Shown piece after piece: positions 1,843-22,315 of a DNA stretch of 24,481 bases; position 1 is the stretch's first letter, and each line of letters begins with the position of its first letter. Position numbers and translations under genes: made by a program. This DNA comes from a virus. The DNA is taken from IMG/VR virus record IMGVR_UViG_3300049432_000211, positions 1 through 24,481 of that record; one strand, 5' to 3'. Under the pieces are notes generated by a model. The model was not told the DNA's origin. It did no database searches and worked only from the letters and a program-made list of their open reading frames with translations.

Positions 1843-3170
1843 CCCTCGTCCTCGACCCCAAGAGCTTCACCGACAAGGGCCTCGCATCGTTGATCGGCTC
1901 GACCGCACGAATCAACATCTGGCACGGCTCGGTGCGATCGACGAAGACCATCAATGCCAACTTCCGGTGGCTCGACTACGTCGCCCGGGACGCGCCCGAG
2001 GGCCCATTGCTCTTCGGCGGCAAGACCAAGGACACGATCGTCCGCAACGTCATCGATCCGATGCAGCAGGTCGTGGGACATCGGGCCCTGCGCGTGGTCG
2101 GCAATAACGCCTACCTCTTCGGGCGAAAGATCCACATCATCTCGGGAAACGATGAGGGCTCCGAGAAGCGTGTTCAAGGTCTCACCCTGGCCGGCGCCTA
2201 CCTCGACGAGATCTCCACGCTGCCCGAGGGCTACTTCAAGATGGTGCTGTCGCGGCTCTCGACCCCCGGGTCCAAGCTGTTTGGGACCACCAACCCGGAC
2301 TCGCCGAACCACTGGCTGAAGACGGAGTTCCTCGACAAGGAGGCGGAGCTCAACGCGGTGGCGCGGCCCTTCGGTCAGGTCGGACTTCGTCAATTCCACT
2401 TCAACCTCGACGACAACCCGCACCTCGACCCCGCTTACGTCGCGTCGCTGAAGGCCGAGTACGGCGGGCCCGGAACGTTGTTCTACATGCGCTTCATCGA
2501 CGGCAGGTGGGTGTTGGCCGAGGGGGCGATCTACGACATGTGGCAGGAGTCGCTCCACGTGACCCCGTTCCTCCCGCCTCCCGAAGACGTCGCTCGAGCG
2601 TGGCTCGGCATCGACTACGGGACGTCGAACCCATTCGTCGCGCTACTGCTGCTGCATGTGACCAAGCCCGTCGATCACATCCTGGTCGCGCGCGAGTGGC
2701 GCTGGGATTCGAAGAGACGTAACCGGCAACTGACCGACGCCGAGTATTCCGAGGCCCTCGCCTTGTGGCTTTCGTCGCCCGAGTGCGCGCCCTACGTGCA
2801 GCCGGCCCGGGATCTCCCGTCCGGCAACCTGGAGCGCATCTACGTGGACCCGAGCGCGGCGTCCTTCCAACGACAGCTTCACGTCGATGGTTTCCACGGT
2901 GTGAATGGTGCGAACAACGATGTTTTGGATGGCATCCGCGCGGTGGCATCGCTGCGAGCGCGACGGCTGCTGTTGGTCCACGACTCCTGCGATGGGCTCA
3001 AGGAGGAGATCCCTAGCTACGTGTGGGACCCCAAACAACAAGCGAAGGGACAGGACGCCCCGAACAAGGAGAACGATCACGGGCCGGATGCCGAGCGTTA
3101 CGGCATCGCATCGGCGAGGACGATCTGGCGCCACTGGTTGGAGCAGGGAGAGTCCGCCCAGACCGGATAG
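1839..3170 (+). CDS. terL: Terminase large subunit (packaging ATPase-nuclease)
   Basis: This 443-residue protein is the DNA-packaging motor. It has a PBSX/Terminase_6-type Walker A, GSVRSTKT (30-37), a Walker B at LAGAYLDE with D123 and E124, and a coupling motif TTNP (150-153). The C-terminal RNase H-like nuclease is marked by GIDYG (D259), YVDPSA (D337) and DHGPDAERY (D413, D417), the acidic residues expected to bind metal. Length is normal for the family. The protein docks on the portal and cuts concatemers. The GTG start overlaps the preceding stop. Its stop codon TAG (3168-3170) lies inside the first copy of the 13-base repeat CCGGATAGACGCG, so the end of this gene overlaps a likely promoter for the following genes. 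Confidence 0.97.
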   Translation: MTLVLDPKSFTDKGLASLIGSTARINIWHGSVRSTKTINANFRWLDYVARDAPEGPLLFGGKTKDTIVRNVIDPMQQVVGHRALRVVGNNAYLFGRKIHIISGNDEGSEKRVQGLTLAGAYLDEISTLPEGYFKMVLSRLSTPGSKLFGTTNPDSPNHWLKTEFLDKEAELNAVARPFGQVGLRQFHFNLDDNPHLDPAYVASLKAEYGGPGTLFYMRFIDGRWVLAEGAIYDMWQESLHVTPFLPPPEDVARAWLGIDYGTSNPFVALLLLHVTKPVDHILVAREWRWDSKRRNRQLTDAEYSEALALWLSSPECAPYVQPARDLPSGNLERIYVDPSAASFQRQLHVDGFHGVNGANNDVLDGIRAVASLRARRLLLVHDSCDGLKEEIPSYVWDPKQQAKGQDAPNKENDHGPDAERYGIASARTIWRHWLEQGESAQTG

Positions 3171-3208
3171 ACGCGCTCCGCCCGTCCCCGCCCTTCATCC
3201 TGCGCGAC
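3163..3208 (+). promoter_or_regulatory. 13-base repeat motif copy 1 with -10-like box; candidate leaderless promoter
   Basis: CCGGATAGACGCG lies at 3163-3175 and overlaps the terL stop codon. Exactly 20 bases later is CATCCT (3196-3201), matching NANNNT, and predicted +1 falls at about 3208, one base before the ATG at 3209. No Shine-Dalgarno sequence precedes that ATG. Copies 1 and 4 share 16 bases (CCGGATAGACGCGCTC). Promoter function is inferred from the four-copy alignment. Confidence 0.6.
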
Positions 3209-3373
3209 ATGACCGAACGCCGCCGCGAGGCAACGATCGACGAGCTCGTGACGTTGCTGGCCGACGAGAGTGAGTACCCCGAGGACACCGTCAAGGACAT
3301 CCTCGACTCCATCGATGATCTCGGTGGCCGCGTTGTGGATGTCACTGTAGTCGAGCCGGAAGAGGCCGACTGA
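3209..3373 (+). CDS. Small acidic protein, unknown
   Basis: A 54-residue acidic product (starting MTERRREATIDELV, ending VVEPEEAD), predicted to be mostly helical, with a short beta-like stretch GGRVVDVTVV near the end. I chose the ATG at 3209 because it lies 33 bases after the first 13-base repeat, the same spacing seen at the other repeat copies; the longer upstream open frame overlaps terL and is a shadow. There is no Shine-Dalgarno sequence, consistent with a leaderless message. Its stop overlaps the next ATG by one base. Function is unknown. Confidence 0.65.
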   Translation: MTERRREATIDELVTLLADESEYPEDTVKDILDSIDDLGGRVVDVTVVEPEEAD

Positions 3374-3834
3374 TGCAGCCGGTCCCGATCCCTTCGCGCA
3401 TGTCCATCCAAGGTGCGAAGAAGAAGACGATCAAGGGTGGCAACACGGGAGCGAGCGACGTCGAGGCTTACGTGGGCGTCAACGATTTCACCAACGACAA
3501 GGGCGAGAAGATCGGGGAGCTTCCGTTCTTCGCCATGTTGATCGAGGTCGATGAGATCGATATGCGCCACCTCCACCTCGACAACCACTTCTGGATGATC
3601 CAGTACGGGCCGCGCCTGCACCCGTTCGCGTTCGATCCCGCCTTCATCTCGCCGGTGCTCGAAGGTATGGACCCCGTCATTAAGGGCCTTCAGGAGATCG
3701 GCGACCTGCTCGCGAAGGCATTCCATGAAGCCGGCCAACCGGAGGTCAACGACTCTGCTCTGCGTGCTCGGCTCTCGGAAATCGAGGCGCTCACCCGCAA
3801 GCTGCAGCTCCTATCAGGAGGGATAGCACGATGA
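3373..3834 (+). CDS. Unknown phage protein with C-terminal coiled-coil segment
   Basis: A 153-residue protein of unknown function. The first 35 residues are basic and polar (GAKKKTIKGG). The middle has alternating hydrophobic strands (ELPFFAMLIEVDEID, then NHFWMIQYGPRLHPF). The last 45 residues form an amphipathic helix with heptad-like spacing (ALRARLSEIEALTRKLQLL). There are no cysteines and no transmembrane segment. It sits between the terminase and portal genes and is coupled to the next gene through an ATGATG junction. A structural or packaging accessory role is possible from position only. Confidence 0.65.
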   Translation: MQPVPIPSRMSIQGAKKKTIKGGNTGASDVEAYVGVNDFTNDKGEKIGELPFFAMLIEVDEIDMRHLHLDNHFWMIQYGPRLHPFAFDPAFISPVLEGMDPVIKGLQEIGDLLAKAFHEAGQPEVNDSALRARLSEIEALTRKLQLLSGGIAR

Positions 3835-4040
3835 TGGACGTCTGGGAACCGGGGAAGTACCGCATTACGGTCGGCTCGGGTGGAGATGAGCCGAACAAAG
3901 TCGACGTAGACGTGGACACGTTCCGTTATGGCGGTCGCGACGGCAACGAGCTCCAGGCCGTGAAGGACAACAAGGTCGTTGCGAGCTGGCGCTGGTGGGA
4001 TTCGATCGAGCTGATCAAGAGCGCTAAGAACGACGACTGA
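3831..4040 (+). CDS. Small unknown protein upstream of the portal
   Basis: A 69-residue product beginning MMDVWEPGKYRITVGSGG. Its pattern suggests a short beta-rich fold: YRITVGS, KVDVDVDTFRYGG and ELQAVKDNKVVASWRWW. Two adjacent ATGs (3831 and 3834) are possible; the first overlaps the previous stop and lies eight bases after a strong Shine-Dalgarno sequence (AGGAGGG at 3816-3822), so I prefer it. The portal gene begins three bases after its stop. I do not recognise the family. Confidence 0.65.
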   Translation: MMDVWEPGKYRITVGSGGDEPNKVDVDVDTFRYGGRDGNELQAVKDNKVVASWRWWDSIELIKSAKNDD

Positions 4041-4043
4041 CCC

Positions 4044-5627: not shown

Positions 5628-5629
5628 AA

Positions 5630-5674
5630 CCGGATAGACGCGGTGAGCTTCAAGCGTCATCGCACCATGCGTTC
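5630..5674 (+). promoter_or_regulatory. 13-base repeat motif copy 2 with -10-like box; candidate leaderless promoter
   Basis: CCGGATAGACGCG at 5630-5642 lies just after the portal stop. CACCAT (5663-5668) begins 20 bases after the motif ends, and predicted +1 coincides with the G of the GTG start at 5675. No Shine-Dalgarno sequence is present. Copies 2 and 3 share 17 bases (GAACCGGATAGACGCGG). Confidence 0.65.
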
Positions 5675-6589
5675 GTGACCACCAAGCTCGTTTTCAACAA
5701 GCTGATCGCGCCGAGCGGGAACTCTCCGCTCAAGGGCACCGCGGTGATCTACATCGCGAACGAGGCTTGGCTTACCGGTGAGTCGACATCCCTGCGCCAC
5801 GTCACACGGGCCTCGACCGATTCGACCGGCAAGTGGCAGGTGAGCCTGCGACCTAACTCGGAGATCACGCCAGAAGGCACCGTCTACGTCGTCGAAGAGA
5901 CCGTCCTTGGGAAGACCGAGACCTATGCGTTCATCGTGCCGGCCGCAGGTGCAGGCCCCCACTGGTTGTTCGACATCCTCACGGATCCACCGGGTGCGCT
6001 GACACCTTCGGCTCTCGCAGCAGAGACCGCGGCCCGTATCGAAGCGGACACCGACGAGGCCACCACGCGAGAGGAAGCCGATGACGTCCTCGCGGCTGCG
6101 CTGGTAGCCGAGACCGACGCCCGAACCGGCGCTGACGCCGATCTCGCCGGTGCCATCACTGAAGCCGAGACCGACGCGAACGCCTATACCGATTCTCGGG
6201 TCGTCAAGGCTGTCATCGACGCCCTGGGAATCGACGCAGCCACCCTTGAGGGGCTGACCGTCGTACAGCTCACCGCTGCAATTACGGCAGCGATCGTGGA
6301 CGCGTCCCCCGCAACCCTGGACACCTTGAACGAGCTGGCGGCTGCGCTGGGAGACGATGCCAACTTCGCCGCCACGATCACCGCGGCCCTCGCGGGGAAG
6401 CAAGCCTTATCGGACGCAGGCATCGGTGGCATCTTCGATTCAGCCGATCCGGTGGGCATCACCTACGAAACCAACTGGGGCATCGACGGCGACGGCAACC
6501 CCTACTACGACGAAGACGGTGCCGCTCCAGGCGAAGACGCCATCTTGTTCATCGACAACTCGGGCGCGTTCGCGCTCGCACAGCCCTAG
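5675..6589 (+). CDS. Tail-fibre/adhesin-like protein
   Basis: This 304-residue protein has three parts. Residues 1-105 form a beta-rich domain (FNKLIAPSGNSPLKGTAVIY, TDSTGKWQVSLRPNSEITPEG) like the N-terminal domains of actinophage minor tail and fibre proteins. Residues about 112-175 are an Ala/Glu/Asp-rich coiled coil suited to trimerisation. Residues 205-250 include ASPATLDTLNELAAALGDD, a segment typical of phage tail-fibre shafts. The C-terminus is short and acidic. A receptor-binding or fibre role is therefore likely, although the gene sits between the portal and minor head protein rather than after the tape measure. A head-decorating fibre is the alternative. The GTG start lacks a Shine-Dalgarno sequence and is predicted to be the first base of a leaderless transcript. 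Confidence 0.75.
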   Translation: MTTKLVFNKLIAPSGNSPLKGTAVIYIANEAWLTGESTSLRHVTRASTDSTGKWQVSLRPNSEITPEGTVYVVEETVLGKTETYAFIVPAAGAGPHWLFDILTDPPGALTPSALAAETAARIEADTDEATTREEADDVLAAALVAETDARTGADADLAGAITEAETDANAYTDSRVVKAVIDALGIDAATLEGLTVVQLTAAITAAIVDASPATLDTLNELAAALGDDANFAATITAALAGKQALSDAGIGGIFDSADPVGITYETNWGIDGDGNPYYDEDGAAPGEDAILFIDNSGAFALAQP

Positions 6590-6598
6590 GAGGCGAAC

Positions 6599-7225
6599 GT
6601 GGTCAAGAAGCTCCTGGCAACACCCGAAGACATCGCAGCGGCCCTACCCGATGGAACCGCCCCAGGTGACGTGCCTATCTGGGACGGGGATTCGTATTTA
6701 CCGGGCGCTCCTGCGGGTGGAGCTTTGCCGGGGTTCTCTGTCTGCGTGGCTGCCAACGCTGCCTTCACTGGCGTCGCCTACATAGACCCCATATCTTTCC
6801 CGACGGTCCTAGAGGACACCGATGGGTTCGTGACCAACGCCACGGACTTCACCGTCCCGGCTGGTCTGGGCGGGCTCTACGAGCTCAACGTGAATATCCG
6901 GGTAGAGATCGGCGCTCCCGCAGAGTTGTTGATCATCAACGCCTTCCCAGAGGTCTATAACGACGGCTACGCCTTGGATTTCTTAGGCATCGAACAGTTC
7001 CCGCAGGTTCCTAGCCTGGTTGGTCACCGGATATTCAGCTTCGCCCGCCGAGCGGTACTTGATGACGGGGACGTGCTCCACGTTGGCCTCTTCTGCCAAG
7101 CAAGAGACGCAGCGGGCAACAATGAGGACGCCGCTTTCAACGCCCTGGTCAAGTACGTCCGCTACCTCCCAGACGACATCTACGCATCCAGCTTCGTCGC
7201 GACCCGGATAGGAGACGCCCCATGA
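6599..7225 (+). CDS. C1q-like beta-sandwich protein, probable fibre tip or partner
   Basis: The 208-residue product begins MVKKLLATPEDIAAALPDG, a short connector like those joining fibre subunits. Residues about 45-205 follow the pattern of a C1q/TNF-like jelly roll: FSVCVAANAAFTG, ISFPTVLEDTDGFVTN, FTVPAGLGGLYELNVNIRVE, and late strands around DDGDVLHVGLFCQ. Such domains occur as trimeric receptor-binding tips in phage fibres. The start is a GTG with an excellent Shine-Dalgarno sequence, AGGAGG (6588-6593), which overlaps the stop codon of the fibre gene just upstream, so the two are translated together. The assignment rests on pattern recognition only. Confidence 0.65.
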   Translation: MVKKLLATPEDIAAALPDGTAPGDVPIWDGDSYLPGAPAGGALPGFSVCVAANAAFTGVAYIDPISFPTVLEDTDGFVTNATDFTVPAGLGGLYELNVNIRVEIGAPAELLIINAFPEVYNDGYALDFLGIEQFPQVPSLVGHRIFSFARRAVLDDGDVLHVGLFCQARDAAGNNEDAAFNALVKYVRYLPDDIYASSFVATRIGDAP

Positions 7226-7347
7226 CCTACGTAGCTACCAACATGACGCCCGGTTACGAAGCAGGCCAGAAGGTGGACGTGAGCGGCTGGCCTGAAAAGA
7301 AGATCGCTGCCTACCTCCGAACGGGCCGTCTCGAAGAGAAGAAGTGA
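7222..7347 (+). CDS. Small basic protein, unknown
   Basis: A 41-residue ORF: MTYVATNMTPGYEAGQKVDV, then a helical KKIAAYLRTGRLEEKK tail. The ATG overlaps the previous stop (ATGA) and GGAG (7211-7214) gives a Shine-Dalgarno sequence. The GC-biased third codon positions support translation. It resembles the small 'hydrophilic turn plus helix' proteins found in many phage head or tail modules, but no function can be assigned. Confidence 0.5.
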   Translation: MTYVATNMTPGYEAGQKVDVSGWPEKKIAAYLRTGRLEEKK

Positions 7348-7397
7348 CCACGACCGACAAGATGGATTACAGCGCGGTCGCTGAATTGGAGGCTTGA
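7344..7397 (+). CDS. Possible 17-residue leader or remnant ORF
   Basis: A GTG overlapping the previous stop (GTGA) opens a 17-codon frame, MTTTDKMDYSAVAELEA. It ends one base before the ATG of the next gene. Its first nine residues match six of nine in the ORF at 7818 (MTTAPRMDY). It may be a coupling leader or the truncated 5' end of a gene interrupted by the insertion of the gene at 7399-7821. Confidence 0.3.
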   Translation: MTTTDKMDYSAVAELEA

Positions 7398-7398
7398 G

Positions 7399-7821
7399 AT
7401 GTGCCCATATTGCGGAGGCGAGATGGTGTGGGTGAGCCACTTCTACGGCTCGGTGGATCATCCCCGTGGGCGGAACGTATGCGTCTCCTTCGGATCGAAT
7501 TGCCAGTGGCGGACCACGGCTCAAAGGAATGATTCCGCGGGCGTTGATTCGCAAGTAATCATCGAAGGTCTACGCCGCAACTGTGAGCACCCAGAGATTG
7601 AGCGTTCGATGCTGACATGCGAGGTACGTCGTTTCGACGCTATTGCTCACATCGAGTCCTTACAGGCGGCAGCGTGGGCGAATGGGTTAGAGCGTGACGA
7701 AGCCAACGACCGCCTAGGGAAAATCCACGGGCTGCTCAACGACCGGCACAATGCCGTCCGCATAGAAGCAGCGCAGGAGTTGGCCCGTCCAGTTCGATTG
7801 ACGAAGGTAGTCAGCGAATGA
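7399..7821 (+). CDS. Zinc-ribbon accessory protein, unknown
   Basis: The 140-residue protein begins MCPYCGGEMVWV. C2 and C5, with later cysteines in RNVCVSFGSNCQW, could form a zinc ribbon, loosely like the Lar restriction-alleviation family, though that link is weak. The C-terminal half is helical (IESLQAAAWANGLERDEAND). Codon third positions are less GC-biased than in neighbouring structural genes, and the gene is bracketed by two related short peptide starts, both hints of a recently acquired accessory gene. Upstream, TTGGAGG (7386-7392) provides a Shine-Dalgarno sequence. Its stop overlaps the following ATG. I assign no firm function. Confidence 0.6.
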   Translation: MCPYCGGEMVWVSHFYGSVDHPRGRNVCVSFGSNCQWRTTAQRNDSAGVDSQVIIEGLRRNCEHPEIERSMLTCEVRRFDAIAHIESLQAAAWANGLERDEANDRLGKIHGLLNDRHNAVRIEAAQELARPVRLTKVVSE

Positions 7822-7898
7822 CTACGGCCCCAAGGATGGATTACCGGCAGACCATGCCTAAGCCACGCTCCGAGGTTCTAACGTCACACCGGTCCTAG
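7818..7898 (+). CDS. Possible 26-residue remnant ORF
   Basis: The ATG overlaps the previous stop (ATGA) and opens 26 codons, MTTAPRMDYRQTMPKPRSEV and six more residues. The start region resembles the 17-codon ORF at 7344, so the two may be halves or copies of one ancestral reading frame. Its stop TAG lies within the 14-bp palindrome in front of the minor head gene. Confidence 0.25.
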   Translation: MTTAPRMDYRQTMPKPRSEVLTSHRS

Positions 7899-7903
7899 GA
7901 CCG
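7890..7903. repeat. Perfect 14-bp palindrome at the start of the minor head gene
   Basis: CGGTCCTAGGACCG is its own reverse complement and its last base is the first base of the GTG start codon of the minor head gene. It also contains the AGGA that would serve as that gene's Shine-Dalgarno sequence, although spacing is very short. It could be a dimeric protein-binding site. Confidence 0.7.
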
Positions 7904-8946
7904 TGCCTGTCTCCCCTGCGCTCGGCGAGCGGTTCGGTGCCAGGCTTCTAGCGATCTACACCGAGGCCGAGTTGGCCATGTTGGAACGGGTCGCCCGTCG
8001 CATCGAACGCGGGATCGACGAGCCGGGATGGGCCGAGCACAAGCTCTTGGAAGTCACCGAGCTGAAGCGCGAGACCCGCGCGATCCTCGAAGGGGTGCGT
8101 CGCACCGGCACCACGGAGATCCCCAAGGCGATCGAGGACGCGTACGCGGCAGGGCTGACCGAAGCCCGTCGCGATCTCGCCAAAGCCGAGGGGGAGTTCA
8201 CGGTGGCGAGCAACCCCCGGTTAGTCACTTCACTCACCACCGAGACGATGACCCGCGTGCAGTCGACGCACCTCCAGATCCTGCGTACCTCAGACGACAT
8301 CTACCGATCGACGGTCGCTCGGGCGAGCTCGCAGATTGCAGTCGGAGCATCGACACGCCGGGAGGCCGCGCAACTCGCGTTGAACGAGTTCGCGAATAAC
8401 GGGGTCACGGGGTTCGTCGACTCGTCGGGCCGTTCGTGGGACATGGCTTCCTATGCGGAGATGGCCCTGCGTGCGACCACCGGCCGCGCATCGGTGTCGG
8501 GTCACGCGGACTCTCTCGAGGCGAACGGGCAAGACCTCGTGATTGTCTCGGACGCTCCGGAAGAGTGCGAGATCTGTCGGCCGTGGGAGGGGCAGGTGCT
8601 GTCGCTTTCGGGTAGCGACCCCAACTATCCGTCACTTGCAGAGGGTGAGGCCGACGGCCTCTTCCACCCCAACTGCCGGCACCGTCTCGGCATCTACATC
8701 GAGGGCGTCACCCGTTCGATGGGCAAGACCGCCGATCCGATCGGGTCCACCGAGCGGGCCCAGCAGCGTTACCTCGAGCGCGGTGTCCGTCAGTGGAAGC
8801 GCCGTGAGGTCGTGGCCATCACTCCCATCGACAAGGTCACCTCGGCGTCGAAGCGCACGGAGTGGCAGACTCGGCTCAAGAGCTTCGTAGAAGACAACGA
8901 TCGCAAGCGACTGGCCTACAGGGAAAGTGTCTCAGTCGCTCGCTAG
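7903..8946 (+). CDS. Minor head protein, Phage_min_cap2 / Mu gpF-like
   Basis: This 347-residue protein sits downstream of the portal, where minor head proteins associated with the portal are usual. Its N-terminal two thirds are helical. The diagnostic part is the C-terminal zinc-like cluster: VSDAPEECEICRPWEGQVLS with C222 and C225, followed by GLFHPNCRHRLGIY with H255, C258 and H260. This CxxC...HxxCxH layout is characteristic of the Phage_min_cap2 and Mu F-like families, which are thought to act in head assembly or DNA ejection. The tail after residue 270 is basic (RYLERGVRQWKRREV). The GTG at 7903 overlaps a 14-bp palindrome. Capsid maturation protease is a less likely alternative, since I see no protease signature. 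Confidence 0.8.
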   Translation: MPVSPALGERFGARLLAIYTEAELAMLERVARRIERGIDEPGWAEHKLLEVTELKRETRAILEGVRRTGTTEIPKAIEDAYAAGLTEARRDLAKAEGEFTVASNPRLVTSLTTETMTRVQSTHLQILRTSDDIYRSTVARASSQIAVGASTRREAAQLALNEFANNGVTGFVDSSGRSWDMASYAEMALRATTGRASVSGHADSLEANGQDLVIVSDAPEECEICRPWEGQVLSLSGSDPNYPSLAEGEADGLFHPNCRHRLGIYIEGVTRSMGKTADPIGSTERAQQRYLERGVRQWKRREVVAITPIDKVTSASKRTEWQTRLKSFVEDNDRKRLAYRESVSVAR

Positions 8947-8955
8947 AGTCACCAC
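8945..8955 (+). promoter_or_regulatory. Candidate -10 box for a leaderless endonuclease transcript
   Basis: TAGAGT (8945-8950) fits TANNNT and lies five bases before the GTG at 8956, which has no Shine-Dalgarno sequence. Predicted +1 is within one base of the start codon. No copy of the 13-base motif precedes it, so if real it is a different promoter class, possibly carried with the mobile gene. Confidence 0.35.
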
Positions 8956-9396
8956 GTGACCGACACCGAGATCGCATGGGCAGCCGGACTCTTCGACGGC
9001 GAAGGAAGCGTCACAATCAAGAAGCGTGGAGGCGCGACCATCCAACTTGGGATGACGGACCTTCCTCTCGTCGAGCGGTTCACTCGAGTTGTCGGTGTTG
9101 GATCCATCTCGGGGCCACGCATCCAACCGAATCGAAAGCCTTCGTGGGTTTGGTTCGCCTGCGGGCTGAATGCCGTTTCGGTCGCCCGTCTCTTGCTGCC
9201 TTATGTCGGGGACCGGAACATCGGGAGATTCGAACGACTCATTCAGTATTACGACGCCTGTAAGAACGGAGTCTGCGAGACCTGCGGCGTCACGTTTTCG
9301 CGTGTTCACCGAGATCGTCGCTACTGCAGCACGTCGTGCCAGTGCAAGGGGTATCGTCGCCGAGGCAAGAGGAAGAGACCTGCTCTAAGTCGGTGA
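8956..9396 (+). CDS. Free-standing LAGLIDADG homing endonuclease
   Basis: The 146-residue protein has a single LAGLIDADG motif, AAGLFDGEGSVTI (residues 9-21), with acidic D14 at the active-site position. Single-motif enzymes act as homodimers. The middle follows the family pattern (FTRVVGVGSISGPR, then WVWFACGLNAVSVARLLLPYV). After residue 105 a zinc finger, CETC with C107 and C110 and then CSTSC with C124 and C128, is followed by a basic tail (KGYRRRGKRKR), likely adding DNA contacts. The gene lies between the minor head gene and the tRNA, and no interrupted intron or intein is visible, so it is probably a free-standing mobile gene. The GTG start lacks a Shine-Dalgarno sequence but has a TAGAGT box just upstream. 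Confidence 0.9.
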   Translation: MTDTEIAWAAGLFDGEGSVTIKKRGGATIQLGMTDLPLVERFTRVVGVGSISGPRIQPNRKPSWVWFACGLNAVSVARLLLPYVGDRNIGRFERLIQYYDACKNGVCETCGVTFSRVHRDRRYCSTSCQCKGYRRRGKRKRPALSR

Positions 9397-9410
9397 TCGC
9401 CGGGGGGCGC

Positions 9411-9584
9411 GTGACTGGACCGAGCTTCGAGATGTGCATCCTCTCGATCGAAGACATCGGAGAGGCGCTCGACGTTGGACCTGGGTTCCGTCGTGTGCGC
9501 ATCACCTACCAGTACGGCGACGGCATCACCACCATCGAAACCGTGCGCGGTCCCGACGATGAGGACGTGACCGGAACCGGATAG
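9411..9584 (+). CDS. Small acidic protein, unknown
   Basis: From the GTG at 9411 the product has 57 residues (MTGPSFEMCILSIEDIGEAL and on) with two likely beta strands, RRVRITYQYGDG and TTIETVRG. Other possible starts are GTG 9393, which overlaps the endonuclease stop, and ATG 9432. I chose 9411 because of the GGGGGG run just before it (9402-9407), although spacing is tight. Its stop TAG (9582-9584) lies inside motif copy 3. I do not recognise the protein. Confidence 0.5.
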   Translation: MTGPSFEMCILSIEDIGEALDVGPGFRRVRITYQYGDGITTIETVRGPDDEDVTGTG

Positions 9585-9620
9585 ACGCGGCGCTCCTTCG
9601 CGTGCGTGCGATGTTCGCCG
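9577..9620 (+). promoter_or_regulatory. 13-base repeat motif copy 3 with -10-like box; candidate tRNA promoter
   Basis: CCGGATAGACGCG at 9577-9589 overlaps the stop codon of the small gene upstream. GATGTT (9610-9615) lies exactly 20 bases after it, and predicted +1 is 9621-9622, the first bases of the tRNA (9621). Such a transcript would carry essentially no 5' leader. Read-through would also supply the scaffold and capsid genes. Confidence 0.6.
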
Positions 9621-9694
9621 CGCACCGTGGAGCAGTCAGGAAGCTCGTCGGGCCCATAACCCGAAGGTCCCCGGTTCGAATCCGGGCGGTGCAA
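9621..9694 (+). tRNA. Initiator-type tRNA-fMet (CAT) with C33
   Basis: The 74 bases fold as a full cloverleaf and follow the bacterial initiator pattern base by base. The acceptor CGCACCG/CGGTGCA has the C1xA72 mismatch, the D-arm has A11:T24 and the 17a insertion, and the anticodon stem is TCGGG/CCCGA with three consecutive G:C pairs. The loop is CCCATAA with CAT at 34-36, and the T-arm is CCCGG TTCGAAT CCGGG. The discriminator is A73 and CCA is not encoded, as is common in actinobacteria. The oddity is C at position 33, where T is nearly universal in bacteria and forms the U-turn. It lies 31 bases after motif copy 3 and 31 bases before the scaffold start. It may act in translation initiation, or be a tRNA-like leader for the head genes. 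Confidence 0.93.
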
Positions 9695-9725
9695 CGTCAG
9701 ATCCGCCACGCACAGGAGGACCGCG

Positions 9726-10529: not shown

Positions 10530-10561
10530 GGGCGGGCCCCCACTCATCAACGCCTAGCGGG

Positions 10562-10594: not shown

Positions 10595-10602
10595 GAGGGG
10601 CC

Positions 10603-11802
10603 GTGCCCCCGATGAAATCCGTGCTGGTGATCTTGATGATCGCCGTGCTCGTACTACCGGTGCTCAACGCCGTGGCTCTCATGCGCGGTCAGGTCCAGGG
10701 CAAGACGCTCCTGCACCTGACGCACATGGACATCTCGACGCATCCGAACCGGGCAACACGTAGGTCGATCAGCCCACTGCTTGGTCGCACGTTGTTCGTG
10801 CTGCGCGGAGAGACCGGTGTGGTCACGCTCGCGCAGGCCAAGCTGAATGCGACCGACGATGTCGACATCCAGGTGATCGACGAGTTCCGCAAGTCATCCT
10901 GGTTGCTCGACAACATGGCCTTCGATGATGTCGTGAACGCCACGGGTCGAGGTGCGACGCTCACCTACGGCTACACCCGCCTTGTTACCGAGTCGGGTTC
11001 CGCCTTCCGAGCGATCAACGCCGAATACACCAAGAGCGAGGCCACCAAGCAGCGCGTCTCGGTGGACCTGAAGCCCTTCGGTGGTGCTTTCTCGATCGAC
11101 CGTGTTCTCGATGCGATCGCACAGGGGGCCGAGACCGCCTTCCAGATGCAACAGAAGATCAAGTCCACCCGGGCTCTCTTCCACGATGCAGTCATCAACG
11201 GTGACACCGGCGTCGATGCCAACAGCTTCGACGGTCTCGACAAGGCGCTCACCGGTACCTCGACGGAGATGAACGCTGATGTCGTGACGGACTGGACCGC
11301 GGTCAACACCGAGGCGCTCGCTCACTCCCAGATAGACGTTCTGGATGAGTTCCTCGAGCTCCTCGACGATGACCCGGTCGCGATCTTCGGCAACAAGAAG
11401 GGTCTTGCGAAGATCCGTGCCATCGCACGGCGCGCGGGCTACTTCACCCGTTCGGAGAATGCCTTCGGTCAGTCGATCGAGAAGTACGGAAACATCGCGC
11501 TGGTGGACATGGGCAACAAGCCCGCCTCGTCCAGCCCGATCATCCCGGTCGAGGACCGCACCGTCGACGGCGAGGAAGAGACGGGTCTCACCGACCTCTA
11601 CGCCGTACGTCTCGGACTCGATGCGTTCCACGGTCTGTCACTCGCTGGCCAGAAGTTGATCCGTCAGTGGCTGCCCAACTTCTCCGAGGAAGCCGGCAAC
11701 GCCGGAGCGGTGAAGGACGGAGAAGTCGAGATGGTTGCCGCGGTCGCGCTTAAGCGAACGAAGGCGGCTGCAGTTCTGCGCAACGTCAAAGTCGTCGCGT
11801 AA
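10603..11802 (+). CDS. Major capsid protein, HK97-fold, with N-terminal hydrophobic extension
   Basis: The 399-residue reading frame contains a typical actinophage major capsid protein starting around residue 73: VTLAQAKLNATDD, then EFRKSSWLLDNMAFDDVV, and late HK97-fold-like strands through VEMVAAVALKRTKAA. The preceding 72 residues are unusual. They begin with a membrane-helix-like run, MKSVLVILMIAVLVLPVLNA, followed by a basic segment (HPNRATRRSISPLLGR). The frame is well supported: third codon positions stay GC-rich and a strong Shine-Dalgarno sequence (AAAGGAGG) precedes the GTG at 10603. A second start, GTG 10819 with GGAGAG upstream, would yield a conventional 327-residue capsid. Both forms may be made. 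The extension could be a delta-like assembly domain or a fused small membrane protein. Confidence 0.9.
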   Translation: MPPMKSVLVILMIAVLVLPVLNAVALMRGQVQGKTLLHLTHMDISTHPNRATRRSISPLLGRTLFVLRGETGVVTLAQAKLNATDDVDIQVIDEFRKSSWLLDNMAFDDVVNATGRGATLTYGYTRLVTESGSAFRAINAEYTKSEATKQRVSVDLKPFGGAFSIDRVLDAIAQGAETAFQMQQKIKSTRALFHDAVINGDTGVDANSFDGLDKALTGTSTEMNADVVTDWTAVNTEALAHSQIDVLDEFLELLDDDPVAIFGNKKGLAKIRAIARRAGYFTRSENAFGQSIEKYGNIALVDMGNKPASSSPIIPVEDRTVDGEEETGLTDLYAVRLGLDAFHGLSLAGQKLIRQWLPNFSEEAGNAGAVKDGEVEMVAAVALKRTKAAAVLRNVKVVA

Positions 11803-11819
11803 CACCGCATCACCGAACC

Positions 11820-11851: not shown

Positions 11852-11877
11852 TAGCCCATGAAAGGGGCTGACGAAAC

Positions 11878-12737: not shown

Positions 12738-12750
12738 CGGCGTTCCACTG

Positions 12751-14172: not shown

Positions 14173-14182
14173 GGGAGGGAAC

Positions 14183-14704: not shown

Positions 14705-14707
14705 CCG

Positions 14708-15456: not shown

Positions 15457-15581
15457 TGCTCGCTGTCGCACTTTCCGGTAGCGCTACGGGGGGCCTTCTA
15501 TCCGAGGCGTTCTCCATGGCGGCCGAGGCCGCAGCGACCGTCGTCGGCGGGCATGTGCCAAGCGATGAGGTGACCCTGTGA
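15453..15581 (+). CDS. Small ORF between chaperone and tape measure
   Basis: A 42-residue frame starts with GTG-ATG (15453/15456), overlapping the chaperone frameshift stop, and runs MMLAVALSGSATGGLLSEAF with an Ala-rich helix (MAAEAAATVV) to a stop overlapping the tape-measure GTG. Overlaps on both sides and GC-rich third positions suggest it is translated, perhaps to couple the tape measure to the chaperone. Function is unknown. Confidence 0.45.
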   Translation: MMLAVALSGSATGGLLSEAFSMAAEAAATVVGGHVPSDEVTL

Positions 15582-17833
15582 AAGTCGGCGAGCTGTTCTG
15601 GGAGCTCGGCCTCGATATGGGGATGTTCGACAAGGAGCTCGACGAGTCCGATCGCAAGGCCCAGTCGGTCAGCTCGGGTGTGGAGCAGACCTTCAAGCGT
15701 GCCGCTCTAGGGATCGCTGCTGCTGCAGGTCTTGGGTTCCATCAGTGGCACGAGGGCTTCGAAGCGATCCGCACCCAAACAGGGGCCGAGGGTGAAGAGC
15801 TCGAGGGCCTCATGGTTGTTCTCCGAAACGTCTCCGGTCAGGTCAAGGCTTCCCTCGGTGACATCGGTCAGGTGCTGGGGTTCGTGCACGTCAAGACTGG
15901 ATTGGTCGGTGACGAGCTCGAAGACCTGACCGTTCGCGCGATCAAACTCGCGGAAGTTACCGGTGGCGACGTCAACGGGACCGTCCGCACCGCGGTAAAG
16001 CTCTTCACCTCCTGGGAGGTCGCGACCAACGACCAAGCGGCTGCGCTCGAGCTTCTCTACGCGGCCTACCAGAAGACCGGTGTGGGCATCGAAGAGATCG
16101 CCGGCAACTCCCTTCGGGCACGCACCCTGCTTCAGGGCCTGGGGATGGACTTCGAGGATTCGATCGCGCTCGCGGCCAAGTTGGGCTCCGCTTTCCCTCA
16201 GGTTTTCGCTGGCCTGCGCATCGCTCTGGCAACGTTGTCGAAGGACCCCTCGGTCAAGAACATCCCCGCCGCATTCCGAGAGATGGTGGAGGAGATCGAC
16301 AACGCCGGTTCATCGGCCTCCGCGAACCGCAAGGCGATCGAACTGTTCGGGTCGCGCGCTGGCCCCTTCCTGGCTACGGCGATCCGTGAGGGCAAGCTAG
16401 AGCTCTCGGACTTTCTAACCGAGCTCCGCAACAGCCACGACACCATCGGCCAGGCACACGACGACGTCCTGACATTGATCGATCGCTTCCGGATGGTTGG
16501 CAAGTACTTCACGGCAGCCGTCGGTCCGGCGCTTCAATGGGGTTCGGCGATCGCCACCATCGCGTCGGGTACGGCTCCTCTCATCCGCGGGGTAACCATG
16601 GCGGCGGGCGCGGTCGGTGGACTGACGCTCTCTTCGATAACCAACAGCACCGCTGTCGTAACGATGGGTGTCGCGTGGCTTGGCCTCGTGGCTATCGCTG
16701 GATCGGTCGCGGCTGCGATCGGAGTGATGACGCTGGCGATCGGTGCAGTCACGCTAGCTGTTGCTGCGGCGGTCATTGGGTTCAAGGTATGGCAGGACAA
16801 TCAGCGAGCGCATCAGGAATCCGTTGACGCATCTAGCAGCCTGCTAAAGGCGTACGCCGTCAACGTCGCCACCGGAACGCATTCCCTCGAGGACTGGCGC
16901 AACCAGATCCGTGCCACGCTCGCGGACGAGAGTCTTTCGATCCAGGAGAAGGCCAAGCTCGCGGCGGAGGCCGACCGTCTCACAGATGCGATCAACGACG
17001 GAACCCTCGCAGCAGAGGGTGAAGAGAAGGCCCAAGAGGGGCTAGCCAAACGTCATAGAGAAGCCGCTTCGGCAGCGCGCGAGCAGTGGACTGCGGAGTT
17101 ACAGCTCGCCGGCGGGATGCTCGGTGTCGAGGCTGCCGCGCTCGGACGTCGTGACGCCATGGATCGTGTCATCGAGGTCCAGACGAAACTGAATCGGCTT
17201 GAGGCCAACGGCAAGGAAGACACGAAGAAGTACGCCGCGACCCAACGTGAGCTGCGCGAGGCGAACCTAGGTGCTCTCCAGGCGGCTCTCGGTCTTGAGG
17301 AATCCGTTCGCTCCTACGTCGAGGAGCTCCGTCACGGCGGGTCCTCACGGAAGGAAGCGATCGACGAGATCCGAGAGTTCGGGCGGCAGACGGGTGTGAG
17401 CCGCGATGAGGTCAACGAGATCATCGGTCGTATCGACTGGTTGAAGGGCCGTCTCAACGAGATCAAGTCACCGCCGCCCATCGACATCAAGATCACGAAT
17501 ATGGACCGCGCGATGGCGATGGTCGACGGGTTCATCGGGGCCCTGGGCGCCATCCCCGGAGCCATCGCGGTGAATGCTCCGGTGCCGAGCGCTTACGCAC
17601 CGAACCACATGATGGGCCCCTCGGCTCCAGCGCGGAGCCCGTTCGCCCCTCGGCCGACGCAAGGGCCACCGTCTCCGCCTCCTCCCACGGTCGGCCCGCG
17701 CACGCCGCGCGGTCGACGAGACGGAGGAAACATCATCATCAACAACGCAGGAGAACCCGTTGACTCGCCGCGCACGATCCGTCGTCTCAAGGACCGCATG
17801 CGCCGCCACGACGTGTTGCTGGGCAACTACTGA
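15578..17833 (+). CDS. Tape measure protein
   Basis: At 751 residues this is the longest gene in the window and follows the chaperones. The N-terminus (MKVGELFWELGLDMGMFDKE, then ASSGVEQTFKR-like helical stretches) matches PhageMin_Tail-type tape measures. Residues about 70-300 are the conserved phage-tail domain (IRTQTGAEGEELEGLMVVLR). Hydrophobic helices at about 310-405 could form the pore made during DNA entry. A long helical section follows (470-620), and the C-terminus has a Pro-rich linker and a NIIINNAG strand. From roughly 0.15 nm per residue the tail would be about 110 nm. No lytic domain is seen. The start is a GTG overlapping the small ORF before it. Confidence 0.93.
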   Translation: MKVGELFWELGLDMGMFDKELDESDRKAQSVSSGVEQTFKRAALGIAAAAGLGFHQWHEGFEAIRTQTGAEGEELEGLMVVLRNVSGQVKASLGDIGQVLGFVHVKTGLVGDELEDLTVRAIKLAEVTGGDVNGTVRTAVKLFTSWEVATNDQAAALELLYAAYQKTGVGIEEIAGNSLRARTLLQGLGMDFEDSIALAAKLGSAFPQVFAGLRIALATLSKDPSVKNIPAAFREMVEEIDNAGSSASANRKAIELFGSRAGPFLATAIREGKLELSDFLTELRNSHDTIGQAHDDVLTLIDRFRMVGKYFTAAVGPALQWGSAIATIASGTAPLIRGVTMAAGAVGGLTLSSITNSTAVVTMGVAWLGLVAIAGSVAAAIGVMTLAIGAVTLAVAAAVIGFKVWQDNQRAHQESVDASSSLLKAYAVNVATGTHSLEDWRNQIRATLADESLSIQEKAKLAAEADRLTDAINDGTLAAEGEEKAQEGLAKRHREAASAAREQWTAELQLAGGMLGVEAAALGRRDAMDRVIEVQTKLNRLEANGKEDTKKYAATQRELREANLGALQAALGLEESVRSYVEELRHGGSSRKEAIDEIREFGRQTGVSRDEVNEIIGRIDWLKGRLNEIKSPPPIDIKITNMDRAMAMVDGFIGALGAIPGAIAVNAPVPSAYAPNHMMGPSAPARSPFAPRPTQGPPSPPPPTVGPRTPRGRRDGGNIIINNAGEPVDSPRTIRRLKDRMRRHDVLLGNY

Positions 17834-19701
17834 TGGACGCCGCGCTCGATCGTCTCCGGATCGTGAAGGAAGACCTCGTGACCGTGGTCCTGAATCTGAA
17901 TGCTCTTCAAGAGGGTGGGGCTAGTGGTTTCCAGGTCAGCATGCTCGACCTCGGCACCCTGCAGATCCCCGGGCCCGCCGACGGCTCCGAGTTCTGGACC
18001 TTCGATATGCCCGCAGATCCGATCGAGTGGGCGATGAGGCTTAAGGCACGTCGAGCTGACAAGGACTACATGGAGCTTCGCTCGATGTTCCGCGACCTCG
18101 GGCTTGCCCTGAAGGACGGCAACTGGATCGAGTTACGCGAGCGCGCGGGCGAGCCCAGCATCTTCTTCAAGTTCCGACCGCTGATGATCCCGAGCTTGTT
18201 GCGCGGCCAAGTAACCATGTGGTCGGTGCTCGACCAGGGTTCCGACGAGATGGAGTCCGAGACCCTCGATCTCCTTCGTGAACCCTTCCTTCGGGAAGCA
18301 CCGGTCGAGCTGCTCGAGGCCGGGGCGATGACCAACGAGGTCGGCATGTTCGCTGCCAAGGTCTTCAACCCCGGGACCATGCCGTCGCCGGCGAAGCTCA
18401 CGGTCGTTGTCCCCGATGTTGCAGCCGAGGGTGTGCAGCTCCGAGTCGCGACCAAGCCTCACGACTCAGAGGCGATCGCGGATGCGCACTTGGCTCTCTA
18501 CAGTGTCGAAGCCGAGGACGGCACCGTGGGCACCAACACGGCGAACGAGATCGATGCCAACGCGTCCGGCGGCAACTTCACGCGCACGACCTATGCAGCC
18601 GTGGGCTACTCGCGCGAGCGCGTTGAAGTGATCGTGGTTCCGCCCACTGCGAATGCGAAGGCTGCTCTGGAGGGCGAGCACGATGTCTACGCGATCGTTC
18701 GAATAACCGAGGCTTCCGAGCAGACCCTTGGTCTCAAGTCGGGCCTTCGTAGCGTGAATCCTCTCGACAACACGCATGACCCCGTGACACTTGATGCGAA
18801 GGATGCCAACTCCGAGATGTGGGTGCCGGTCAGGCTCGGGCGGATCGAATACACCACCAACGCCGATGAGCTGGTGTGGCAACTGTGGGCGCAGTTGGAC
18901 GAACAGCCCGGAGCAGCGGTCCTAGACGTCGACTACTTCGTTCTCATGCCGATCGGGACCAAGGTCATCACTGCTGGCGTGATGGGATGGCGAGCTGGTC
19001 GAGCCGCGGTGGAGCGATACCGCGGCGACGAGCTAGTCACCCCGACGAGTCCCGCGGGATTGACGGCCGGAACGGTGAAGGAGAGCGGCGTTGTTCTTGA
19101 TGCCAATGACGAAGCGGTGGGGACTCAGCCCAACGCCGGTACCCCTTACCCCGCGGGCCGATTGGTGGTCACTGCTCGCGTAACCGTCAAGGATCAGTCT
19201 GGAGATCGCAACGAACTCGGCGTCCTTCGCCTCCGGAACATCACCGACGGAACCACCGATGTTTCTCGCAAGATCTACTCGAAGAAGAACCGCAAGGAGT
19301 GGGAGACCGAGGTCGAGATCGCGTTGAGCACGAACGCGGCCAAGCTCTACCAGGCACAAGTCGAGGCGACCAACATCGATCCGGACGCGAGTCAGAAGAT
19401 CGTGGTCGAAGAGCTCCGCACGCGGTTCGTTCGCGTTGTAGGTGACGGCGACAGCTTCGTACTCGATGCCGATGAACCTAAGAACGACGGTGTCTGGGCA
19501 GACGGGGTAAAGGTTGCCCACCTTCCGGCGATCACGCATCTCACGCTCGAGCCCGGGTGGTCCACGGTCCTCATCCAGATGGGCGAATGGTCCGGGCTCG
19601 CCTATCACTCAGACGTCGACGAGCGTGAGCCACTTGCCAAGATCGTTCAGGAACGGGACTTCGAAGCGACACTCGAAGTGACCCCGATGCATCCGGCATG
19701 A
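17833..19701 (+). CDS. Minor tail protein, distal-tail-like
   Basis: This 622-residue protein comes directly after the tape measure, where distal-tail (Dit-like) proteins are found. Residues 1-165 form a likely Dit-type region (LDLGTLQIPGPADGSEFWTF, then FRFRPLMIPSL-like strands). The remainder is beta-rich with repeated sandwich-like patterns, for example MWVPVRLGRIEYTTNADELV near residue 330, and YPAGRLVVTARVTVKDQSGD near 437, suggesting added carbohydrate-binding-like domains. It starts at the TGATG junction with the tape measure and overlaps the next gene by ATGA. The domain calls are pattern-based. Confidence 0.8.
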   Translation: MDAALDRLRIVKEDLVTVVLNLNALQEGGASGFQVSMLDLGTLQIPGPADGSEFWTFDMPADPIEWAMRLKARRADKDYMELRSMFRDLGLALKDGNWIELRERAGEPSIFFKFRPLMIPSLLRGQVTMWSVLDQGSDEMESETLDLLREPFLREAPVELLEAGAMTNEVGMFAAKVFNPGTMPSPAKLTVVVPDVAAEGVQLRVATKPHDSEAIADAHLALYSVEAEDGTVGTNTANEIDANASGGNFTRTTYAAVGYSRERVEVIVVPPTANAKAALEGEHDVYAIVRITEASEQTLGLKSGLRSVNPLDNTHDPVTLDAKDANSEMWVPVRLGRIEYTTNADELVWQLWAQLDEQPGAAVLDVDYFVLMPIGTKVITAGVMGWRAGRAAVERYRGDELVTPTSPAGLTAGTVKESGVVLDANDEAVGTQPNAGTPYPAGRLVVTARVTVKDQSGDRNELGVLRLRNITDGTTDVSRKIYSKKNRKEWETEVEIALSTNAAKLYQAQVEATNIDPDASQKIVVEELRTRFVRVVGDGDSFVLDADEPKNDGVWADGVKVAHLPAITHLTLEPGWSTVLIQMGEWSGLAYHSDVDEREPLAKIVQERDFEATLEVTPMHPA

Positions 19702-21380
19702 GATCGAAACTCGGGACCGTCGTGCACCAGGTCACCTCGGACGAGGGCACCTGCACATTCCGCGCCACGGAGCATTGGGAGGCGACCGAGATCGCACCCG
19801 GTGGCTATGAAGGGGCGAAGGAAGCGATTCCCGAGAGCATGTATCGGAAGCACCGCGGTGCCTTCAAGCGAGGGGCGGTCTTCCGGTCGTTCCTCGAGCA
19901 GACCGGCGAGTGCATCTTCGGCGGCGAGATCCCCGACGATCCGACCGTTAATGACGGGCGCCTCGACATCGCCGTTGATGGTTGGGCGAAGCGTCTCGAG
20001 CAGAAGGCAGGACGTCTCCTCTACAAGAGCGACGATCTTGGTGAGTGGGTGAAGCACAAAGGGCGGCTCTCAGGCGGACCCCGGAAGTGGGAGGCCGATC
20101 TCGATTCCGACTACTCCCACGGCCCCTTCGCTCTCGACGGTCCCTACCTCGGGTTCAAGCGTCACCACTTCAACATCATCGATGAGGGTGCCTACGGCAC
20201 GGCCGGTTGGCAGGCGGCAAATGTCGAGGGTTACGGGGAAGCCTTCCAGTTCGCGACCCCCGGCTTCAGTGGTCTGACCCGACTCAAGTTCAAGGCTTAC
20301 GGCGTCGGACACAGCTCGTTCTCCGTGAACGGTCGATCGCCCGGATGTCACCTGAAGGTGTGGGCTCTGAGTGACGAGGGAGGCGCCTACCTGATGGATG
20401 TCTTTTGGTACGGCATCAGTGGAGCGGGTGACGGGCTCGAGGTCGACGTGTTGCTCACCGGTCCGTCGATCAACTACGGGTTCCCAGGACCTTCGCACGA
20501 TTGCATGATGATTCGCCTAGAAGTGGGCGACATCTATCAGGGCATCCTCGAAATGTTCGCGAAGTATGGGGTCCCACCCGACGCCGCCTACTCGCCGAAC
20601 GGTGTGGCCAATCAGTACGACTCCTGGACGAACCCGATGCAGCTCGTGGTCTATGACGTTGAGGTCTTCGGGATCTCCACGGATAGCGACATGTCAGTTT
20701 CGGCCGGGGTCCGCGACATCGCCTCGCGCGCGGGGGTCCGGGACTCCCAGGTCACCGAGTTCGGCTTCAACATGCTGCCCCTGGATTTCAGGAACGGTGA
20801 AAGCTACGCCGAGTGCCTCGCTTATCTAGGGATGCTGGTCGGAGCCCGAGCTCTGATGCTCGACACCGGCACTCGCCCGTACCTGGAGTTCGACCGTCCC
20901 TCGAAGAGGGTCTGGACGCCCGATCGACATCAGCGGGTCGACACCTGGGCGCTGCGACGTTATGACCGAGCGAGCTTCCCGTGGCGATCGACGAATGGTC
21001 ACTCGCATGGGTGGACCCAAGTGGTGGCGGAAACACCTTTCGAGAAACCGCGCTCCTATGGGCGAATCCAGATGACCGATCGGTTTCCGTCGGAGGAGCG
21101 TCTAGCAGTGGTGGGAGGCCAGGTCGTGGAGCAACTCGTCAAGCATCGGCTCGGTGGGGATTTCGACATCACCTACGTCACCGATGACGACGGCGCGATC
21201 CGGTCTGGCTACCTAGTTCACGCCGGCGACATGATGAAGAACAAGGAAGGGTCGGGGCGCGGAGCGATCGCACGCAAGACGATGACCATCCGCGGCGTGT
21301 CGGGGCAACTGGAGACCAACCTCCTATCTCTCGATCGCCTGCTCGAGCACGAAGCCAAGCGGATGCAGAGGGCATCGTGA
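19698..21380 (+). CDS. Minor tail protein, tail-hub (Tal-like)
   Basis: The 560-residue protein is the second tail-tip gene. Its N-terminal part (ATEHWEATEIAPGGYEGAKE, then VFRSFLEQTGECIFGGEIPD and DIAVDGWAKRLEQKAGRLLY) follows the beta-barrel pattern of phage hub/baseplate proteins. A beta-sandwich-like insertion lies at about residues 150-260 (ATPGFSGLTRLKFKAYGVGH). The C-terminal half resembles the hub's second lobe (FGFNMLPLDFRNGESYAECL, then VVEQLVKHRLGGDFDITYV). With the preceding protein it likely forms the tail tip that contacts the host. No peptidase or glycosidase signature is visible. Confidence 0.78.
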   Translation: MRSKLGTVVHQVTSDEGTCTFRATEHWEATEIAPGGYEGAKEAIPESMYRKHRGAFKRGAVFRSFLEQTGECIFGGEIPDDPTVNDGRLDIAVDGWAKRLEQKAGRLLYKSDDLGEWVKHKGRLSGGPRKWEADLDSDYSHGPFALDGPYLGFKRHHFNIIDEGAYGTAGWQAANVEGYGEAFQFATPGFSGLTRLKFKAYGVGHSSFSVNGRSPGCHLKVWALSDEGGAYLMDVFWYGISGAGDGLEVDVLLTGPSINYGFPGPSHDCMMIRLEVGDIYQGILEMFAKYGVPPDAAYSPNGVANQYDSWTNPMQLVVYDVEVFGISTDSDMSVSAGVRDIASRAGVRDSQVTEFGFNMLPLDFRNGESYAECLAYLGMLVGARALMLDTGTRPYLEFDRPSKRVWTPDRHQRVDTWALRRYDRASFPWRSTNGHSHGWTQVVAETPFEKPRSYGRIQMTDRFPSEERLAVVGGQVVEQLVKHRLGGDFDITYVTDDDGAIRSGYLVHAGDMMKNKEGSGRGAIARKTMTIRGVSGQLETNLLSLDRLLEHEAKRMQRAS

Positions 21381-21407
21381 TGGGCCGGCAAGAAGGGACG
21401 TGCGGGT

Positions 21408-21827
21408 GTGTCCTTCCTTGAATCGGCCATCGTCGGAGTCACAACAGCCGGGATCACCGGGACCGAGCTCGCTGCTCTTCTCACAGCTCTCACCGGAATT
21501 GCTGCCCTACTTGGCAAGTGGTGGGGTGAGCGCCGAGGTCGACAAGAGAGGCAGGCTGCGGCTGACCTTGAAAAGTCCGTTGCCGTCATCAATGCCTACG
21601 CACAGCTCGTCAAGGATCTTCAGGGTCAGGTGGATTGGCAGGCGAAGGCGCACGGAGCGGATCGTGCTTCCTGGGCGACAGAGAGGGCAGAGCTTCGCGC
21701 GCGCATTGCGAAGTTGGAGAAGCAGGTCAGGGAGCTAAGGGGGCAACTTGAAAGAAGAGGGGAAGACACCGGCGCCCCAAGCGGAATCGGAGATCGACGA
21801 GGACCTACGGGTGCCAAAAGAGACTGA
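21408..21827 (+). CDS. Membrane protein with coiled coil, possible holin-type
   Basis: The 139-residue product has an N-terminal hydrophobic helix at about residues 12-36 (TGTELAALLTALTGIAALLG), then a tryptophan pair and a basic patch (KWWGERRGRQER). A long coiled coil follows (residues 45-118) with a charged tail. One membrane helix plus a coiled coil just before the lysis genes suggests a holin-like or spanin-like role, but a tail-tip or envelope role is equally open. The GTG at 21408 has AGAAGGGA (21391-21398) upstream. The region overlaps the next gene's 5' end. Confidence 0.55.
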   Translation: MSFLESAIVGVTTAGITGTELAALLTALTGIAALLGKWWGERRGRQERQAAADLEKSVAVINAYAQLVKDLQGQVDWQAKAHGADRASWATERAELRARIAKLEKQVRELRGQLERRGEDTGAPSGIGDRRGPTGAKRD

Positions 21828-22266
21828 GCACGCGATCTTCGACACGTTCGTAGCTCGAGCCGATCGCCTTGTGGCGGAGTCCCACCGACTAGCCAACCGG
21901 ATCACCGAGGCCAACCTCACTATCTCGCTCGTGGGACGGAAGTTCCTTGCCTACGCTGGTATCGCGGTGGTGGTGGGGTTCTTCCTTACCGCCACGTACG
22001 TCTCGCAGTGCGCGGTGATGGGGCAGCCGACGTCGGAAGCGAAGGCGACCGTCTGCGATGCTCTCTATCCGTTCCAAGGACACAGTGCGTCGACCACACG
22101 CGATGGGGGACCCGAATGGTGGGCGCCCCTCCCATGGGCGGTGGCGATTGCAGGTGCCACGATCTGGTACCGCCGAGCCGAGAGGTTCGTGCTCCGAGCG
22201 CAGAGACGGCTTCGTCAGGACACCGCTCGGTCGAAGGAAGACCAGGAACGCAAGGGTTACCTCTAG
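21748..22266 (+). CDS. Two-helix membrane protein, possible lysis accessory
   Basis: From TTG 21748 the product has 172 residues with an acidic N-terminus and membrane helices at about 67-87 (FLAYAGIAVVVGFFLTATYV) and 126-142 (APLPWAVAIAGATIWYRRAE). The loop between them contains two cysteines (about 89 and 104) and would lie outside the membrane if both ends stay inside. The C-terminus is basic. TTG has AAGGGGG (21737-21743) as its ribosome site but overlaps the previous gene by 80 bases; GTG 21811, with GAGGA upstream, is the alternative start. It precedes motif copy 4 and the endolysin, so a role in lysis is possible. Confidence 0.55.
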   Translation: MKEEGKTPAPQAESEIDEDLRVPKETEHAIFDTFVARADRLVAESHRLANRITEANLTISLVGRKFLAYAGIAVVVGFFLTATYVSQCAVMGQPTSEAKATVCDALYPFQGHSASTTRDGGPEWWAPLPWAVAIAGATIWYRRAERFVLRAQRRLRQDTARSKEDQERKGYL

Positions 22267-22270
22267 CCTC

Positions 22271-22315
22271 CCGGATAGACGCGCTCTCGCGACCCCCGCT
22301 TCCTACTGTCGGTGC
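22271..22315 (+). promoter_or_regulatory. 13-base repeat motif copy 4 with -10 box; candidate leaderless promoter
   Basis: CCGGATAGACGCG at 22271-22283 is followed 20 bases later by TACTGT (22304-22309), a full TANNNT -10 match. Predicted +1 is the A of the ATG at 22316. No Shine-Dalgarno sequence precedes that ATG. This is the clearest of the four copies and would drive the lysis genes. Confidence 0.7.

Follow-up and report, generated by a model that had tools for sequence, protein, structure and literature searches.

A repeated 13-bp motif at fixed distance from four phage gene starts probably marks a phage-specific promoter family

Organization of the phage fragment

All the sites described here lie in a single 24,481-base virus record from IMG/VR (hereafter the window, which is the whole stretch of DNA analysed), a fragment of a siphovirus-like phage with head, tail and lysis genes and a GC content of 63%. 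The gene order is small-terminase-like HTH protein, terminase, portal, a set of inserted genes, MuF-like protein, LAGLIDADG protein, tRNA, scaffold, capsid, tail genes and endolysin, with the HTH protein (1-507) occupying the position of the small terminase. The nearest named relatives are actinobacteriophages, for instance Streptomyces phages SV1, Raleigh and Ignacio, with around 40% identity in the portal and up to 55% in the capsid. A genome scan with the capsid protein returned mostly Bacillota prophages, and neither the tail protein 17833-19701 nor phage DNA similarity led to any relative.

Two features of the head genes were noted in passing. The region 10603-10818 of the capsid ORF encodes an extra, hydrophobic N-terminal part of 72 residues preceded by a strong Shine-Dalgarno (SD) sequence, and matches to the family begin at residue 73, at a GTG. 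Also, a perfect 14-bp palindrome, CGGTCCTAGGACCG, occupies positions 7890-7903 and overlaps the MuF start codon by one base at its end.

Identical 13-mers at four gene junctions

The sequence CCGGATAGACGCG occurs in the 24.5-kb record in exactly four exact copies, all on the + strand and all at gene junctions. Each copy either overlaps the stop codon of the upstream gene, as do copy 1 (3163..3175; TAG of the terminase large subunit gene) and copy 3 (9577..9589; TAG of a 57-aa ORF, 9411-9584), or lies 2-4 nt beyond it, as do copy 2 (5630..5642; 2 nt past the portal stop codon) and copy 4 (22271..22283; 4 nt past the stop of the ORF 21748-22266). The intergenic gaps at these junctions are approximately as long as the element requires. 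A sequence-only reading of this DNA had reported the four motifs, and the stop codons contained in two of them, and both points were confirmed. The same reading named motif copies inside genes as evidence that would count against it; a record-wide mismatch scan found no further copy with up to two mismatches anywhere in the record, and the ten remaining matches have three mismatches each, a number at chance level. The sequence CCGGATAG at 7204 was rejected as a copy, because it sits in the end of a gene and is accompanied by an SD.

CCGGATAGACGCG is the sole 12- or 13-mer with four + strand copies in the record, and no 13-mer reached four copies in any of 300 Markov and 300 codon shuffles. Single 14-mer matches in other virus contigs, which among the matches listed sit in ORFs, do arise by chance; nevertheless, the shuffles (0/600), together with the junction position, orientation and spacing of the copies, make it extremely improbable that the 13-mer recurs here by chance. 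The sequences flanking the four copies are only 15-42% identical, indicating that selection, and not a recent duplication, accounts for the constancy of the 13-mer.

A −10-like box at constant distance from the motif

The 13-mer is separated from the next unit by 33, 32, 31 and 32 nt, a range of 2 nt over four junctions, and these units, all on the + strand, are three ORFs and one tRNA gene. Copy 1 precedes a 54-aa ORF (3209..3373) opening an extra two-gene cassette (3209-3834) between terminase and portal, and copy 2 precedes the gene for a 304-aa tail-fibre-like protein (5675..6589), which opens the four-gene cassette 5675-7821 inserted between portal and MuF. Copies 3 and 4 precede, respectively, an initiator-type tRNA-Met(CAT) (9621..9694) and a CHAP/peptidoglycan-binding endolysin gene (22316..23074), whose start at 22316 is supported because profile matches begin at residues 8-12. 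A −10-like box of the form NANNNT starts exactly 20 nt downstream of every motif (CATCCT, 3196..3201; CACCAT, 5663..5668; GATGTT, 9610..9615; TACTGT, 22304..22309; all +), followed at all four sites by 5-7 nt to the next unit. The gaps and box positions had been given in the sequence-only reading, and every number was correct when checked.

Comparison of 45 columns downstream of the motif left only offsets 15, 21 and 25 invariant in all four copies, the last two being the A and T of NANNNT. The probability of a common NANNNT offset anywhere in the range 10-26 was about 5 × 10−6, both in shuffles of the four downstream stretches and for random quadruples of window positions, for a pattern that was picked after inspection, though −10 boxes are known to have it as their core. 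A scan for a repeated 9-mer with NANNNT at constant offset and a start codon recovered the window motif; across about 270 further loci, its only match was a 327-nt repeat array. The constant distance to box and unit start, tRNA included, thus survived both the shuffles and the survey of other loci.

The boxes themselves are weak, matching TATAAT at three of six positions and having T in position 1 in one box only. No −35 hexamer was found 16-18 nt before them, and a sigma-70 scan detected no promoter-like −35/−10 pair in the window.

Start codons of the motif-headed ORFs

As previously claimed for the three protein starts, no SD sequence was found upstream of 3209, 5675 or 22316. Several other non-coupled genes have AGGAGG-type SD sites (6599, 9726, 10603 and 14183), and the SD is also absent from at least two further non-coupled genes, at 8956 and 12751, so that the contrast is weak when taken alone. 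All three motif-headed ORFs start with RTGACC (ATGACC at 3209 and 22316, GTGACC at 5675), as do, among the other listed genes, those at 1839, 7222 and 8956.

In the three ORFs, the box begins 12-13 nt upstream of the start codon. In the leaderless TA-led genes of high-GC bacteria, the −10 core is found 'around 12 bp' from the start (PMC3160421). In the window, a TANNNT core at 12-13 nt upstream has its A2 and T6 in all three ORFs and its T1 in one of the three. The motif-headed ORFs resemble the TA-led genes of Actinobacteria and Deinococcus-Thermus (PMC3160421) in the lack of an SD and the high GC content and, in part, in the −10 core about 12 nt upstream. However, TA-led genes are host genes whose sole defining element is the −10 box, whereas here an identical 13-mer stands at the place of the −35 and T1 is mostly missing.

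As a separate observation, the LAGLIDADG-type gene at 8956 has a GTGACC start 6 nt past TAGAGT (8944-8956), a better box than those at the motif sites and one that includes the MuF stop codon, with neither SD nor 13-mer. We list this single case as a side observation, a possible second kind of leaderless start.

A candidate promoter family

The interpretation best supported by the constant spacing ahead of both ORFs and tRNA is that of a promoter family, as the sequence-only reading had proposed. We consider it probable, from four sites in one contig, that these sites form one phage-specific family in which the 13-mer takes the place of the −35 and which gives leaderless mRNAs for the ORFs. 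Transcription would start at the start codon, or at most one base from it, placing the 13-mer at about −45 to −33, where it would take the role of a −35 element. Because the −10 boxes are weak and there is no −35 hexamer at 16-18 nt spacing, we propose that the 13-mer is read by a sequence-specific factor, which could be a class II-like activator from phage or host or an alternative sigma factor; a site at −45 to −33 is placed as expected for a class II activator, or for a factor that stands in for the −35 contact. Four units would then be switched on jointly: the 3209 cassette, the 5675 cassette, the initiator tRNA, with scaffold and capsid downstream, and the endolysin. Judging from their gene content, these would be late units. 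As to the terms used earlier, then, a promoter family remains the best-supported reading, 'leaderless' and 'activator-bound' are properties that we infer, and 'late' reflects the gene content; for the tRNA copy, 'leaderless' has no translational meaning, and only the three ORF mRNAs would be leaderless.

The tRNA is informative in another respect. Since an untranslated gene lies at the same distance from the motif as the ORFs, the spacing cannot come from ribosome binding and points to the transcript start, and a purely translational role for the 13-mer is excluded. An action of the 13-mer in RNA could also take the form of processing or antitermination in a read-through transcript, with the downstream ends made by cleavage. 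It would agree with a 13-mer that lies on the transcribed strand, overlapping or just past a stop codon, and with the presence of a tRNA at the same distance, given that tRNA 5' ends are normally made by RNase P. Nevertheless, we found no conserved RNA structure at the motif, the predicted folds differing between copies and being no more stable than those of shuffles, and the invariant A and T fit a −10 box; overall, we regard an RNA signal, translational or other, as quite improbable.

If the promoter reading is right, this would be a class of phage promoters that can be recognised from sequence alone, and one in which the promoter also sets the mode of translation, with the mRNA starting at the start codon.

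Comparison with known phage elements

Phage-specific promoter families are of a known kind; what is new here is the motif, its position, and its occurrence ahead of presumed leaderless starts together with an initiator tRNA. The T4 MotA middle, Mu C late and P2 Ogr promoters form a class of activator-dependent promoters that drive leadered mRNAs. Like the sites in the window, they have a phage-specific box upstream of a weak −10, without a proper −35, in several units, and an identical box at fixed distance from the −10 is present in all four units examined here. The sequence of the motif and its position (−45 to −33) differ from those of the T4, Mu and P2 promoters, and no homologous activator was found in this 24.5-kb fragment. 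The C-dependent late promoters of Mu are described in PMC4461284.

Actinophages also contain 13-bp repeats of other types. The start-associated sequences (SAS) of cluster K phages, GGGATAGGAGCCC, lie within a few nucleotides of start codons, occur at non-structural genes only, and are able to base-pair with 16S rRNA (PMC3203893). Both SAS and window motif are asymmetric 13-bp sequences, in the same orientation and near gene starts that follow larger gaps, and they have GGATAG in common. Unlike SAS, the window motif has a different sequence, lies 31-33 nt from the start, shows no SD pairing and heads structural and lysis genes as well as a tRNA. The distinctness from SAS that had been claimed for the motif thus holds, since SAS abut the starts of non-structural genes and have the capacity to pair with 16S rRNA (PMC3203893).

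The closest alternative to a promoter is an operator for a phage repressor. Stoperators of L5 and cluster A phages are repressor sites in transcription regulation; they are numerous and not tied to gene starts, which counts against an equivalent role for the four copies. They are likewise asymmetric 13-bp intergenic repeats of actinophages (PMC3203893), and a stoperator-like 13-mer, oriented with transcription in short intergenic gaps, could silence the units in a lysogen or block passing transcription; moreover, a repressor bound at −45 to −33 could also hold a fixed position. Stoperators appear to differ from the window motif in sequence and are not known to keep a set distance from a −10 box or start. 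Against an operator, silencing would not require the constant 20-nt spacing to the −10 box, and to the start, that all four copies show, and there is no good −35 for a repressor to mask. We therefore consider an operator unlikely.

Motif-headed units and syntenic relatives

Comparison with syntenic relatives indicated inserted gene cassettes directly behind two or three of the four motifs, while the fourth precedes the endolysin. Copy 2 opens a stretch of 2.3 kb between portal and MuF; in fourteen contigs or phages with both genes matched, the corresponding alignment gap is about 0-140 bp, mostly below 100. The 13-mer thus tends to stand in front of accessory units, which fits 'morons' with their own promoter. 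The absence of these genes from relatives could also mean that the 13-mer is mainly a recombination joint marking the insertion of cassettes, with no regulatory role. Such a joint would not require constant spacing to a −10 box or start, however, and the 13-mer is found only 5' of the units and never at both ends, while the endolysin is no obvious insertion; this explanation is very unlikely. Should the promoter reading be correct, it would offer a direct route to testing how accessory cassettes import their own late promoters into a head operon, and how leaderless translation is supplied in infection.

Phages of the SV1 group have terminator-like hairpins and SD-led starts in the gaps ahead of scaffold and endolysin, suggesting that these junctions are regulatory there too, by other means. 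More broadly, the corresponding gaps of SV1, Raleigh, Ignacio, GMA1, REQ3 and Keanu have mostly SD-led starts, and none matches the architecture.

No relative identified by its terminase, portal, capsid or MuF protein has the motif at gene junctions, and no other phage with the CCGGATAGACGCG architecture was found among the IMG/VR matches listed and the relatives compared. Scanning for the motif with NANNNT at 20 bases, as had been proposed, bore out the four sites in the record and gave no match at gene junctions of the relatives compared. Among the IMG/VR matches listed, nearly all 14-mer matches (L008-L127) are in long open frames and are due to chance, and loci with two 14-mer copies are protein repeats or in-gene. 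The complete pattern (motif, N20, NANNNT and start) had at least seven matches in IMG/VR, all listed ones inside long open frames, and a relaxed version had three, one of them the 13-mer with one mismatch and none with a multi-copy architecture.

A repeat of similar design was found in L005 (IMGVR_UViG_3300002136_000127), the best terminase match in IMG/VR (45% identity). In this contig, CTGACACC is followed by 8 nt, NANNNT, 6 nt and ATG (CTGACACC-N20-ATG) at SD-less starts, at three junctions with zero mismatches (9194, 11433 and 15581), and no further site has one mismatch. Two of these, at the terminase/portal junction and downstream of MuF, on the scaffold side, correspond to places that bear the motif in the window. 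The repeat did not arise in any of 300 Markov sequences for the L005 contig, and it was the only match among about 270 loci in an 8-mer architecture scan. It differs from the window motif in its sequence, its distance of only 8 nt from the box and its three sites. We take the L005 repeat as suggestive only, because it was found by searching many loci; it may represent a second promoter family built along the same lines.

An initiator tRNA with C33

The tRNA at 9621-9694 has a C1-A72 mismatch, an A11-U24 pair and GGG/CCC in the anticodon stem, which we take to mark it as an initiator tRNA. A comparable initiator-type tRNA occurs in Micromonospora phage pMLP1, which was discarded as a parallel case, as it has no matching repeat. 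The anticodon loop of the window tRNA, CCCATAA, contains a C at position 33, where U is near-universal in tRNAs. This C33 loop could possibly provide escape from anticodon nucleases.

It has been proposed that altered anticodon loops let phage tRNAs evade host tRNA nucleases, and where a host has a VapC that cuts tRNA-fMet, its phages were reported to lack, in general, a tRNA-fMet of their own (PMC10264068). A doubtful extension of the promoter reading is that a late leaderless regulon is coupled, within the same family, to an initiator tRNA whose C33 may resist tRNA-cutting defences, which would keep start-codon-only translation going after the host initiator tRNA is cut. If the promoter reading is right, a phage-made initiator tRNA and leaderless phage genes would be tied under one switch; that the phage uses the 9621-9694 tRNA to support leaderless translation is put forward only as a hypothesis.
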